DNA of 37,867 nt from a virus: the IMG/VR virus record IMGVR_UViG_3300031565_003022, positions 1 through 37,867 of that record. One strand, given 5' to 3'. Made by a program: the position numbers and the translations under genes. The notes beneath the pieces were generated by a model. That model ran no database searches, was not told the DNA's origin, and saw nothing but the letters and a program-made list of their open reading frames with translations. This document shows positions 30,625 to 36,807 of this stretch, piece by piece. The stretch's first letter is position 1, and every line of letters begins with the position of its first letter.

Positions 30625-30862
30625 TGCGAAACTCCTTTATGGCTTGCTTTAGCATTACTGTCTCCGAAGGACTTAGGTCATTTACTGATATATCGAATAA
30701 CTTGAGGAAGACACAGTCTATCAGCTCTATTAGTTCATCAAAACTCTCCTCATCGCTAGGTACATCTGGGTCTCCATATATATCATCTATTACCTTTTGC
30801 TTCTGGCAGTCTAGTAGGAAGTTGCACTTTTGAATACTAATTCTGACATCTTTTAAGCTCAT
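30617..30862 (-). CDS. 81-residue acidic helical protein
   Basis: ATG at 30862, overlapping the nuclease stop by 4 bases; the TAG overlaps the methyltransferase start. Acidic, helical (DDIYGDPDVPSDEESFDELI, then ELIDCVFLKLFD). No family is recognised. May act with the nuclease or methyltransferase. Confidence 0.7.
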   Translation of the reverse strand: MSLKDVRISIQKCNFLLDCQKQKVIDDIYGDPDVPSDEESFDELIELIDCVFLKLFDISVNDLSPSETVMLKQAIKEFRSG

Positions 30863-31677
30863 ATCTCTCTCCCTAAACTAAGTAATATCTTCTCTGCCAT
30901 CTTCCTTCCTATACCTTCCACACTCATCAGTTCAGATACTCCAGCAGTAGCTATGTCTAGCATATTCATAAACTTGCCTGCTATCAACTTTGCCTTTTTC
31001 TCTCCTACACCTAACTGGTAAATACTAGAGAGGAACATTAGAGACTTGGCAAACCTAAACTCCTGCTTCTCAGCCTCGGTCATATCCTTCTCAGTCTTAA
31101 TATGTATCTGTGGTCTGATTACTCTCTGTAGTGTTTTGTGTTCTTCTGGCGGCTTCTGCTCGTTTCTATATATAGCTGATAGTAGCTTGGCAGTATGCAC
31201 CCAGTTTATAGTACAGTAAGTAATAACTCCTGCTTCAGCTAACCTGTGAGTCCAAGCGGCTAGTAGGGAATCATTGACTGCTGAGAAACTATGTCCACTC
31301 TTAATAAACCCGCCTGGCTCAACCTTATAGCAATACAACTTAGCTCCCAAATCTCTGGTACTAACACTACTACCGTGAGCATCTATTGGTACTGTGGCAT
31401 CTTTCATCTTTAGCTTATCAGGACTAATAATGCCCTCGATAATCTGATAGTTCTTATCAGCATTATGGTAGTATTCAGCTAGTTGCTTCTCAGCTTCATC
31501 TATGTTACCTACCAACTCTCCAGCCTGCTTGCGACTGAACTGCAACCTGGTGCCATCGAAGCTACCAAAGAAGTAGTCAGACATATTAGCAATATTTAAG
31601 TCAGCTACAGTAACAGGACAGGATTGCTGTAGGAGTTTTACTATGTTGTCAGGCTCATTTGAGTCAATAAGTAAAAT
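30859..31677 (-). CDS. ERCC4/XPF-type nuclease with HhH, ATT start
   Basis: From the first ATG (31584) the protein is 241 residues and lacks the domain start. Upstream in the same frame, 31 codons read LLIDSNEPDNIVKLLQQS and then VADLNIANMSDYFFGSFDG, the normal beginning of an ERCC4 nuclease domain. No ATG, GTG or TTG exists there before in-frame stops; an ATT at 31677 lies 7 bases after AAGGGA and one base after the upstream stop. So ATT is the likely start (272 residues). The ERK signature is degraded (FSRKQAGEL), IIEGI is kept, and the C-terminus has two helix-hairpin-helix units (QLGVGEKKAKLIAGKF, SVEGIGRKMAEKILLSL). Such enzymes cut branched or flap DNA in recombination. Confidence 0.8.
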   Translation of the reverse strand: MLLIDSNEPDNIVKLLQQSCPVTVADLNIANMSDYFFGSFDGTRLQFSRKQAGELVGNIDEAEKQLAEYYHNADKNYQIIEGIISPDKLKMKDATVPIDAHGSSVSTRDLGAKLYCYKVEPGGFIKSGHSFSAVNDSLLAAWTHRLAEAGVITYCTINWVHTAKLLSAIYRNEQKPPEEHKTLQRVIRPQIHIKTEKDMTEAEKQEFRFAKSLMFLSSIYQLGVGEKKAKLIAGKFMNMLDIATAGVSELMSVEGIGRKMAEKILLSLGREI

Positions 31678-32992: not shown

Positions 32993-33212
32993 TACTCGCT
33001 CCTCTCTTTAGTGCTTCAACCTTCCTCTCAATATCGGGAAGCCTAGTACTGACTTTGTCAATAAGGATTTTCAGAGACTTCAAGTCACTTTTGTCTCCGC
33101 TAATCAGAATTCTGTCAAATCGCCATACCATAAATCTCGTTCCTGAGCTGCTTGCTTCTATATCTACAGAACAATCACCATGCACAAATCTATCTGTTAT
33201 AGAAATCTTCAT
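32985..33212 (-). CDS. 75-residue hypothetical protein
   Basis: ATG at 33212 overlaps the end of the Sak4-like gene; its stop overlaps the RNase H start. N-terminal strands (CSVDIEASSSGTRFMVWRFD), then a helix with charged face (LKILIDKVSTRLPDIERKVE). Unknown; likely part of the recombination module. Confidence 0.65.
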   Translation of the reverse strand: MKISITDRFVHGDCSVDIEASSSGTRFMVWRFDRILISGDKSDLKSLKILIDKVSTRLPDIERKVEALKRGASNA

Positions 33213-34099
33213 TGCACTGCTCCTCTCAATAGATTAACTATATTAACAATACCTTCATAGGTTGCTGGAATCTCCAATCCTAAGGCTCTCAATCCTGTAC
33301 CCTCTATGCCGCACTTGGTTATCTTAGCTATTGGATACTTTTCCTCTATCTTAATAGACTTTGGGTTAGAAGGGTCTGAAGGAACCATGTGACTCTTGAG
33401 AGTTAGCCACATAACTAGGTCTGAAAACTTGGTAGTGTCCTTATAGCCATCTATAATAATCTTGCCAGTCTTGGCATCTTGGAAACCACCCTTGCCGTCA
33501 GGCATAGGTCCATAATCATCTGTGGGATAGTGGATTAGAATTAGATTCTTCCTGTATGACCTTGAAGTATGGTAAATCCTTTGTAGTCTGTCATAAACTA
33601 CTCCATACTCTATAGGCTGTAACCTCTCTCTGAAGTCATTAGCGTCAAATTGAGTAGTAGGATGCTCCTTCTTCCATCTGATAAGTTGCTTCTCTTGAAG
33701 CTCCTGCAAGTAGGCATCACAACCTATCTTGTACATCATAGTGGCGGAGTCGAGTATCACCGACTTTAATTCCTTCGTTAAGCAATCCTTAACAAACTGG
33801 TCTATTATGGTCTGCCACAGCTCCTTCATACCTTCTACCTTCTTAGGGATAGCTGCGGCTCTTGTGGATGCTTGAGGTGGGCTTACGATACCTTTCATCT
33901 TGGCTATATCTGCATCTGTCAGAGGCTTAGGGAAGCTATGAGTCTCTATGTCAGCTGTATCTAAACGCCAAGCTGCTCTCTTATACCCACCTACATCTAT
34001 ATCTAGATGTGACTGCGGCTTAGGAAAGGTTAGACCCATCGTAGTCTTACAGGTTCCTTCCTCACCGCAGATGGTAACTATGCCTATGTAGTCATCCAT
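33209..34099 (-). CDS. Sak4/RecA-like ATPase
   Basis: The frame extends to GTG 34120, but ATG at 34099 with AGGAGG 6 bases upstream is preferred (296 residues). Walker A GEEGTCKTT (12-20) and Walker B SVILDSAT (D117) mark a RecA-fold ATPase; NLILIHYPTDD looks like the next core strand. Single-strand annealing ATPases of the Sak4 type are widely paired with a Cas4-like nuclease and an SSB-like protein in phages, which is the setting here (34259 and 35227). Likely promotes strand annealing. Confidence 0.8.
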   Translation of the reverse strand: MDDYIGIVTICGEEGTCKTTMGLTFPKPQSHLDIDVGGYKRAAWRLDTADIETHSFPKPLTDADIAKMKGIVSPPQASTRAAAIPKKVEGMKELWQTIIDQFVKDCLTKELKSVILDSATMMYKIGCDAYLQELQEKQLIRWKKEHPTTQFDANDFRERLQPIEYGVVYDRLQRIYHTSRSYRKNLILIHYPTDDYGPMPDGKGGFQDAKTGKIIIDGYKDTTKFSDLVMWLTLKSHMVPSDPSNPKSIKIEEKYPIAKITKCGIEGTGLRALGLEIPATYEGIVNIVNLLRGAVQ

Positions 34100-34268
34100 C
34101 TTCTTCCTCCTCTTCACCACTGCCCTTAATAGGAACTGCCGTTACCTTTGCCATTGACCTTCTGTAACATGACAATACTCTCTCGTCTATGCAGTAGCCC
34201 TCATATGGGTCAGCGGTATTAGCAGACTTCCAGCTTGGACAGTCCTTCGCTGTGCATTCTAATCCCAT
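34092..34268 (-). CDS. 58-residue Cys-rich protein
   Basis: ATG at 34268 overlaps the stop of the nuclease gene; TGA at 34092-34094 overlaps the ATPase start. Cysteines in LECTAKDCPSWK, YCIDERVLSCYRR give a possible zinc site; the tail is acidic (GSGEEEEEDG). It fills the gap between the nuclease and the ATPase in the same operon and may bridge them. Confidence 0.65.
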   Translation of the reverse strand: MGLECTAKDCPSWKSANTADPYEGYCIDERVLSCYRRSMAKVTAVPIKGSGEEEEEDG

Positions 34269-34963
34269 AGTTTCATATCCTCCTTTGCCTGCTCCTCACT
34301 CATTGTAATTCCTCCTGCTCTAGCTAATGTCTGGCATACTAGCTTATACCTGCAGTACTTACACTCCCAGTCATAGCAGTTCTTGAATGGCTCAGGTGGA
34401 GTGCCAGTGGCTATTGCTTCATCTAGTACCGACTTGTTGTCTAGTATCATCCGCCAATTCTCCTCAAGTTCACTTCTTTCAAACTGCTCAGTCTCAGCAT
34501 ATATGTCAGGAAATGGAGGCGAATAGTTACCCATCATATATAGAATGATGAGGTCATACTCTATCTTTTCCATCATATAGCATCCTCCCATCATATAGTC
34601 TACCCAAGTAACTGGTAGGCTATCATCCAGATAATGATACTTTGCCGACTTCCTTGTAGTCTTAATCTCATTCAGCCTACTAGATAGAATCATATCTGGT
34701 CGGTAGATGATACCATCCTTCCTTATAACTGGGGCATCTGCATCTGGTGGTGTAAGCACATCTTGCAGTCCATATCCCAAAGCAAACAGCATCACTTCCT
34801 CATCAGTAGGTTCTGCAGTCTGCTTTGCATCTAGAAACGATTTAGTTCTGCAGGTAATATAACTGCTAAGATGATTAGCCTCCCTAACTTCCTTGATTTT
34901 ATAGAGGTCGGCTAGGTGGTCTAGTATCTTGCGTTTTAGTTCTGGGTTATCTATGCGTCTCAT
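34259..34963 (-). CDS. Cas4-like PD-(D/E)xK nuclease with Fe-S site
   Basis: 234 residues, ATG at 34963 after AAGGAGGAAG. Nuclease motif YRPDMIL...NEIKTTR (D90, E99, K101). Cysteines C38 near the N-terminus and C201, C204, C210 in ECKYCRYKLVC give the Cas4/AddB-style 4Fe-4S pattern. Such enzymes resect DNA ends; phages use them with annealing ATPases. No CRISPR array is present, so the role is recombination rather than spacer capture. Confidence 0.85.
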   Translation of the reverse strand: MRRIDNPELKRKILDHLADLYKIKEVREANHLSSYITCRTKSFLDAKQTAEPTDEEVMLFALGYGLQDVLTPPDADAPVIRKDGIIYRPDMILSSRLNEIKTTRKSAKYHYLDDSLPVTWVDYMMGGCYMMEKIEYDLIILYMMGNYSPPFPDIYAETEQFERSELEENWRMILDNKSVLDEAIATGTPPEPFKNCYDWECKYCRYKLVCQTLARAGGITMSEEQAKEDMKLWD

Positions 34964-34986
34964 TCTTCCTCCTTATTAGTAACTCA

Positions 34987-35194
34987 GGTGGGGCTGGTGC
35001 TCCTCACCACGTACTCAACGGATTGGCTACCGTCTATTGTGGTCACCCCACCCTTTGCTACTGCCAGCTAGTAGCCCTCGTGTTGCTCCTCTGACTACGA
35101 CTATTCGCCCCTCACCTTTCAGGAGCTATGGGTAGCTGGCAAGCTTGCTGGCTAGTTCAAACACATTTAAGTCGTTTCTCGAACACCAGCAAGC
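34987..35194 (-). ncRNA. candidate structured RNA
   Basis: No gene lies between 34964 and 35226. The region divides into three independent helical domains with perfect complementarity. Domain A: 9 bp pairing 35143-35151 with 35186-35194, with an inner GTTC/GAAC and AAAC/GTTT stem. Domain B: 9 bp 35062-35070 with 35133-35141, enclosing GCTCCT/AGGAGC (35085-35090/35121-35126). Domain C: 7 bp GGTGGGG/CCCCACC (34987-34993/35046-35052), enclosing TGGTG/CACCA (34995-34999/35005-35009) and ACGG/CCGT. Each is helix-within-helix, unlike chance. The strand is assumed from the leftward transcription; folding alone fits either. No tmRNA, RNase P or riboswitch signature is recognised. Confidence 0.65.
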
Positions 35195-35226
35195 ATTACC
35201 ATGCACTTTTCACCTCTGCTACTTAT

Positions 35227-36000
35227 TTAGAACGGGATTTCAGTCTTGTGAAATATCCCTTGCTCATCCTGAACAAACTTCTTTGCTACTAACATGGTGT
35301 TAGCGAATGAGTTTGGTGCTGTAGGTGGCATACCAATAGCCTGTAGTAGAGGAGTGTCATTCCTGATAATTGGATTAGCCAGAGCTTTTGCATTGAACTC
35401 AGCCAATGTCTTGCCATCTAGCATATCCATAGCTAAGTCCATAGGGCTTACCCCCTGACCTCCCGCTACTCCTATGCCCTCAATCTCATATACTGTCCAG
35501 GCTGCTGTAGGTTTATCAGCATCAAGTCTGCCATCGTATAAGTCTGCAGGCTCTGGTCTACCATCCTCCCCATCAGTCAGGACAAAGCCCAACCTCTTAC
35601 CGATGCAGTCTCTCTTGCAGTCCATCCTATCCACTGGCTTAATGTACTCGGCACTGTCTCGGTCGAGTTGCTCTGCGGTGTACTGCTGGTCTGCCACATT
35701 GTTAAAGCCTATGGTGCGGTCTTTCGGAGTCCCCTCCGAGAACACTCCCCAGCGGGACTTCTTCCTATTGGACAGGGATACCTGGATGGTATAGATTGGG
35801 AAGTGATAAGGCTCTGCCGCCTCAATTACTTCTATCTCCTTGGTGTTGACGAAGATACGGGTAGTTGTTCTTGTCTTTTCTCCCTCCCCATAGGTCTGCT
35901 TCTCCGTAGGCATACTGTCAAGCACTCCAGTAAACTTCCGCAAAGGACCTAAGTCAGTCTCTATGAGTCCTCTAGTGGTTACCTCTGCCTCTTCTGTCAT
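35227..36000 (-). CDS. putative ssDNA-binding protein
   Basis: 257 residues, ATG two bases after the acidic mini-gene's stop. Strand-rich middle (PYHFPIYTIQVSLSNRKKSR, then RLGFVLTDGEDG) with aromatic and basic residues and a CKRDC pair; helical C-terminal third ending TEIPF. Found beside the Cas4-like nuclease and Sak4-like ATPase, where phages place single-strand DNA-binding proteins. No OB-fold motif can be proved by eye, so the call is contextual. Confidence 0.45.
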   Translation of the reverse strand: MTEEAEVTTRGLIETDLGPLRKFTGVLDSMPTEKQTYGEGEKTRTTTRIFVNTKEIEVIEAAEPYHFPIYTIQVSLSNRKKSRWGVFSEGTPKDRTIGFNNVADQQYTAEQLDRDSAEYIKPVDRMDCKRDCIGKRLGFVLTDGEDGRPEPADLYDGRLDADKPTAAWTVYEIEGIGVAGGQGVSPMDLAMDMLDGKTLAEFNAKALANPIIRNDTPLLQAIGMPPTAPNSFANTMLVAKKFVQDEQGIFHKTEIPF

Positions 36001-36252: not shown

Positions 36253-36282
36253 ATTATACCACATAGACGATATTCTTGTCAA
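36253..36282 (-). promoter_or_regulatory. consensus promoter with short leader
   Basis: Read leftward: TTGACA (36282-36277), 18-base spacer ending TGTGG, TATAAT (36258-36253). It drives the recombination/replication block. About six bases after the predicted start lies an AGGAG-led mini-frame of six codons, MKSQEV then TAG (36241-36221), which overlaps the ribosome site for the membrane protein and may act as a leader peptide. Confidence 0.85.
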
Positions 36283-36357: not shown

Positions 36358-36807
36358 TTATTCTTCTACCCCTCCTCCATAATGTCTGCTTCTGTCATAG
36401 GCTTCTCTATCTCTATCTACCTCCCTGTACCTATCATCTGGGCTGTCCTTAGTTAGCGTAGTAGGGTCTATGCCAGCGTCAGCCATATACTGCTCATAGA
36501 TAGATATCTTACTGCTAATCCGTTCCCTTGCCTTCTTCAGCCTTCTCCAGTCCCTCACCGTAGCGAACTCCCTGCGAGTGAGTACTACCAGGTTACCAAT
36601 CTCATTATTACTATTATCATCGTCTTTGTGATAGACAATATTATCCCTAGTTAGATTCCTACCAAGATGGGTAGCCATGATAAGGCGAGGCTCTGATATA
36701 TTGCCTTTATTACTGGTTCGGTAGAATGGATGGTCCTTGTTTATACGGATTACTCTGCTCCTGCCAGACTTGCCGTAGTAGCTGGGCGGTATAGTTAGTT
36801 CCTCCAT
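36358..36807 (-). CDS. HNH-type protein, third His replaced
   Basis: 149 residues, ATG at 36807 after AGGAGGTACT. HNH-like core: THLGRNLTRDNIVYHKDDDN then SNNEIGNLVVLTRREF (H60, N67-N68, N72). The usual final His is Phe (F81), so cutting may be lost or the metal site altered. A basic helical segment follows and a disordered Arg/Asp-rich C-terminus. Flanked on both sides by inverted AT-rich hairpins; homing-type HNH genes insert between phage genes, which this may be. Confidence 0.75.
   Translation of the reverse strand: MEELTIPPSYYGKSGRSRVIRINKDHPFYRTSNKGNISEPRLIMATHLGRNLTRDNIVYHKDDDNSNNEIGNLVVLTRREFATVRDWRRLKKARERISSKISIYEQYMADAGIDPTTLTKDSPDDRYREVDRDREAYDRSRHYGGGVEE

Follow-up and report, generated by a model that had tools for sequence, protein, structure and literature searches.

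This study confirmed that the RNA of a non-coding gap in the window, by which we mean the whole analysed stretch of 37,867 nt of the IMG/VR virus record IMGVR_UViG_3300031565_003022, is a real member of a modular RNA family composed of separately folding hairpin modules. Its members are spread over dozens of uncultivated phages that are unrelated to one another, mostly between genes for DNA recombination, and the family is undescribed within Rfam 15 and the literature searched. The leading mechanism, as yet unproven, is that the array may function as a cis-acting element of processive antitermination, for which we estimate a probability of about 0.4.

The gap comprises 263 nt on the minus strand (34964–35226), from the stop of gene A (35227–36000) to the start of gene B (34259–34963), and it immediately follows the operon's first large gene. 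As genes A and B both lie on the minus strand, the RNA is complementary to the strand read in the initial annotation, which had correctly described about 260 gene-free bases at this place. Gene B encodes a Cas4/PD-(D/E)XK-like nuclease (PHROG 1706, E 1e-6; weak PDDEXK_1/Cas4 matches), and the next gene in the operon, gene D (33209–34120, minus strand), encodes an AAA_24-like ATPase by a match below the cut-off. A sigma-70-like promoter (36253–36282, minus strand; TTGACA-18-TATAAT, 12/12, with TG before the -10 element) precedes gene A, at a distance of about 1 kb from the array, and the same promoter arrangement was found upstream of gene A in the relative L004. Gene A (minus strand) has a strand-rich predicted fold and a tail ending in EIPF, and no Pfam, PHROG or PDB match was obtained for it; we do not claim it as a single-stranded DNA-binding protein (SSB), since comparison of its predicted fold with the PDB gave nothing significant (best E 0.036, Stn1-Ten1). 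The predicted fold of the gene A family (window 35227–36000) is weakly and non-significantly similar to OB-fold proteins, and the SSB-like tail EIPF is confined to the window copy.

The three stems of the initial annotation are present at 35143–35151/35186–35194 (9 bp), 35062–35070/35133–35141 (9 bp) and 34987–34993/35046–35052 (7 bp). The last of these, GGTGGGG at 34987–34993 against CCCCACC at 35046–35052, gains an eighth pair, U-G, when read on the minus strand. The accompanying estimate that two 9-bp matches were unlikely by chance fails, as the window holds 18 perfect 9–10-bp stems with loops of 20–130 nt compared with 6.5 in shuffles. The stretch 34987–35194 folded more stably than shuffled sequence, more clearly so on the minus strand (z -3.67) than on the plus strand (z -2.86), as did the whole gap 34964–35226 (z -4.37 in the sense and -2.66 in the antisense direction); values below -3 are common in the window scan and are reached by many stretches. 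Because the window is full of such stems and of z below -3, stems and folding energy alone are weak evidence, and it is the conservation in other phages that makes the array more than chance. In the window scan, folding was strongest elsewhere, at 2026–2175 (z -5.4), beside a 14-nt inverted repeat (2125–2138/2148–2161); this stretch resembles a terminator separating gene clusters.

The description of three adjacent domains forming a structured RNA was borne out, and the domains correspond to the adjacent, stem-closed modules M1, M2 and M4, all on the minus strand. Module M1 (35143–35194) is closed by the stem GCTTGCTGG/CCAGCAAGC (35186–35194 with 35143–35151) around an inner hairpin, and the same arms recur in about 18 distinct M1 copies from other phages. 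Module M2 (35062–35141), whose stem is separated from that of M1 by 1 nt, consists of the outer helix P1, TGCCAGCTA/TAGCTGGCA (35133–35141 with 35062–35070), and the helix P2, CC/GG (35131–35132 with 35115–35116), around a stretch ending in GAAA, together with the core GUAG and a 3' GGCUAC. Module M4 (34987–35052) is closed by GGTGGGG(U)/(G)CCCCACC (35046–35052 with 34987–34993, plus the U-G pair 35045/34994) and contains inner hairpins.

Across the family, the pattern of M1 is CTTGCTGGTGTC...GAGCCAGCAAG, that of M2 is GCCAGCTACCCGAAAGG...GGCTACTAGCTGGC, that of M3 is GCCTGAGCC...GGCTCAGGC, and that of M4 is GGGGTGA...GCCCC with a variable outer stem. The module order is fixed where the modules are present, namely (leader UUAACAAYWRAAUA)-M1-M2-M3-M4, and tandem copies of M1, M2 and M3 are possible, as in L036 with three M1 and two M3 and in L070 with two M2. 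The module interiors vary in length and sequence, whereas the stems and core bases are retained. The family was widened by gene-independent pattern scans of IMG/VR, which added three phages with a divergent gene A (L036, L039 and L042; 23–28% identical) as well as phages with unrelated genes; all relatives are metagenomic contigs. At L088:6210–6536 (plus strand), one M2 is preceded by two leader motifs (6210 and 6384) that both lead into an M1-like start, which suggests that the leader-M1 unit was duplicated.

A covariance model of M2 (R1), built from 19 sequences with the window left out, recovered the window copy at 35062–35141 on the minus strand with 38.2 bits (E 1.1e-8), compared with 18.6 for the antisense reading, and detected about 37 further M2 copies in IMG/VR phage contigs. 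In M2 P1, four pairs are changed on both sides, with 11 such cells compared with 2.6 ± 1.4 in shuffles (0/500 reach this count), and these counts lean towards the structure because the alignment was fitted to it. The arm pairing in the last scan, which left one base of the 5' arm free, is a cleaner test of covariation: GCCAGCCA was paired with TGGCTGG in all four accepted copies (L095, L099, L105 and L106), and GCCAGCTA was paired with TAGCTGG in L100. For the M4 stem, whose arms were picked by a rule using the GGGGT/CCCC core alone, changes on both sides occur at 7 of the 12 pairs, with a covariation of 0.335 compared with 0.129 ± 0.023 (17 phages); the closing U-G pair is found in 13 of these 17, and the window itself carries this covarying stem with the GGGGU/GCCCC core. 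The compensatory changes named in the initial annotation as support for its three stems exist for M4 and M2 P1, and those for M1 are anecdotal, as its arms hardly vary and one clean change (L100) was seen.

Consistent with the initial annotation, which recognised no known RNA class, the window gave no Rfam match at the gathering score. A search of six relatives against Rfam at E<=1 returned nothing credible and one chance IS009 match, and no tRNA or tmRNA was found. The window stretch was unmatched among known phages by DNA, and the L036 array gave nothing there beyond chance matches of about 27 nt. The literature search, of incomplete coverage, found no description of an M1-M2-M3-M4 family. 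A weak R1 match at L004:265–335 (E 0.006) was not trusted, as this stretch is apparently coding, and contigs with a bare M2 string and no module were regarded as chance (e.g., L045, L046, L048, L049, L086, L096 and L097). One of these contigs, L086, is levivirus-like (ssRNA phage) by an RdRp-like open reading frame and lies outside the family. The sole match to the M1-M2 junction in bacterial and archaeal genomes, in Marinospirillum (L068), had no module arms and was likewise taken as chance.

The initial annotation placed the RNA in a recombination operon, and this holds for the recombination/replication setting of the window; the family is broader and is also found in late structural operons. 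Arrays stand beside a Gp3-like recombination directionality factor in L044 (Pfam) and L092 (by similar sequence), beside an integrase in L093, downstream of an SSB (PHROG 6243) in L069, and beside an ERCC4/HHH nuclease in L066 (weak match). By our own reading of the open reading frames, the neighbours in L065 and L074 are probably ERF-like and that in L055 VRR-NUC-like, none of them with a Pfam match, and the copies in L072, L073, L075 and L079 appear to have portal- or scaffold-like neighbours. In L083, a TTGACA-17-TATGAT promoter opens a leader in which M2 and then a terminator precede a small ORF, with the gene for the terminase small subunit next, and a second M2 lies in another operon of the same contig.

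Two statistics point to transcription elongation. The array contigs hold few strong intrinsic terminators (15 in 672 kb of strand), yet one follows within 110 nt of M2 in 3 of 31 copies compared with 0.08 expected, a hypothesis formed on the same data. These terminators (-19.6, -20.6 and -12.2 kcal/mol) are squeezed between M2 and the ribosome site of the next gene, and the phages concerned lack room for a promoter between terminator and gene. Similarly, 10 of 33 arrays are preceded within 35 nt by TTAACAA, compared with 0.12 expected, again a hypothesis formed on the same data, and both sets of numbers overstate independence because several arrays come from related phages. Thirteen of 17 occurrences of TTAACAANNRAATA were flagged ahead of a module-like arm, that at L033:82 probably by chance. 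Five M2 copies found later brought one more leader (L100) and no terminator. In the window the leader is absent, and downstream on the array strand there is no strong terminator and a single weak, chance-level terminator-like site. The array leader CUUUAACA resembles boxA. The boxA element recruits NusB-S10 and nucleates Nus antitermination complexes (PMC10250234).

The conserved, covarying sense-strand RNA occupies operon gaps and leaders, is associated with a leader motif, and stands ahead of terminators as M2 in three phages. From these data we infer an action on RNA polymerase, with read-through instead of attenuation as its outcome. During transcription of the gap by RNA polymerase, the modules M1, M2 and M4 would fold in succession, and the stems of M1 and M2, 1 nt apart, could stack. 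The modules, together in many phages with the boxA-like leader directly upstream, would then modify or bind the elongation complex, which may resist pausing and termination further on, in the style of HK022 put with interchangeable modules. The window copy, leaderless and with no terminator nearby, would act alike, perhaps against Rho or pausing. A wider and more doubtful proposal is that of a hitherto undescribed, modular, RNA-only system of processive antitermination shared among unrelated phages of uncultivated bacteria, with exchangeable hairpins often nucleated by a boxA-like leader and used in the replication and late operons of one phage.

The foremost rival is mRNA processing or stabilisation, in which RNase III cuts or a block to exonucleases would let the mRNA of gene A and the nuclease/ATPase mRNAs decay differently; we regard it as a serious and, on balance, rather unlikely explanation. 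Searches with both flanking proteins yielded about 30 viral loci, and each of the 19 distinct A-B gaps examined (60–575 nt) contains at least one stem despite differing sequence. The mean z of these gaps is -2.61 in the sense and -1.96 in the antisense direction, compared with -0.74 and -1.42 in the flanking coding DNA; four gaps (L003, L009, L023 and L025) were no more stable than shuffles. The best stems of most single-hairpin relatives have 10–19 bp with 1–4 G-U pairs, and A-C pairs are practically absent, which, like the conserved closing U-G pair of M4, indicates that the sense transcript is the folded strand. In close relatives, one long hairpin of unrelated sequence fills the gap, so that any stable hairpin may do, a point against antitermination. 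The place of the gap directly after the first large gene, and a window copy with neither leader nor strong downstream terminator, are also in line with processing. However, processing does not account for the conservation of the M2 core, for modules that keep a fixed order, for the leader motif, or for the occurrence of M2 ahead of terminators and in a promoter-proximal leader.

Terminator placement taken alone fits attenuation as well as antitermination, and an attenuator or riboswitch-like element, in which the M2 fold would sense a signal and decide whether the next terminator forms, is conceivable from the order promoter-M2-terminator-gene in L083/L090 and M2-terminator-gene in L073 and L075, the latter two with no promoter identified ahead. 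We consider it improbable, as 28 of the 31 arrays have no terminator behind them, the strongly variable interior lengths are unlike a ligand pocket, and no overlap was seen between M2 and terminator stems. Least probable is a site through which a recombination or ssDNA-binding protein of the phage would autoregulate the upstream gene, or else a structure that works as ssDNA, as suggested for STAXI, since the upstream genes, which do include those for an SSB, Gp3-like directionality factors and an integrase, belong to unrelated families, other copies stand beside portal-like, scaffold-like and terminase genes, and G-U pairing and sense-strand bias favour RNA.

Among known systems, the closest published analogue of the array by anatomy and setting is STAXI (RF01728), a repeated pseudoknot of Enterobacteriales with unknown function (Weinberg et al. 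2010; PMC2864571). Both are tandem compact structures near genes for ssDNA-binding proteins, integrases and topoisomerases, but the present family has, in place of a repeated pseudoknot, four distinct stem-closed modules whose order is fixed and whose stems covary, and the window is unmatched in Rfam, which includes STAXI.

The nearest functional model of the antitermination reading is provided by putL and putR of phage HK022, two stem-loops of a phage leader RNA whose effect on RNA polymerase is exerted in cis and requires no phage protein (PMC9378689). HK022 carries two copies, like the two M2 sites in L083, whereas the arrays here can contain far more modules, are often placed after the first gene and in many cases have a leader. 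In put, antitermination in cis goes through the beta' zinc-binding domain. A put-like placement, with a promoter upstream and a terminator downstream, is complete in L083/L090; in the window, the promoter lies 1 kb upstream and there is no strong terminator. The best R1 score on the complete HK022 genome, with filters off, was 10.5 bits (E 0.44), which does not support homology. The order of a boxA-like linear element and then a hairpin within an operon also recalls lambda nut and rrn boxA-boxB (PMC10250234). Here, however, long multi-domain hairpins take the place of the small boxB, no N-like protein was identified, and many array copies, including that of the window, are leaderless. In the early mRNA of phage T7, RNase III sites are stable hairpins between operon genes. 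The arrays are likewise stable hairpins between phage operon genes, but simple cleavage sites are not expected to show conserved cores, a module order, a leader and an association with terminators.

To our knowledge, protein-free RNA control of RNA polymerase is known from very few phages. If the antitermination reading is true, a family of dozens of members that combines conserved cores with exchangeable modules would be a testbed for RNA-only reprogramming of elongation and would offer a handle on the coordination of early and late operons in phages. Even as a device of mRNA stability, it would be a new searchable RNA family marking the recombination and late operons of uncultivated phages.

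Several further observations concern the genes around the arrays. In the window, gene A is preceded by an HNH-type endonuclease gene (36358–36807; Pfam HNH_3), and a putative one, read from the sequence alone, lies inside the A-B gap at L012:5760–6236. Nuclease-like genes ending in a helix-hairpin-helix recur in array operons, as at 30859–31584 of the window and in the weakly ERCC4-like downstream gene of L066. An insert of about 700 nt splits the gene B homologue near residue 147 in L029 (1378–2829) and L030 (5001–6467), and could be an intron, an intein or a homing element.
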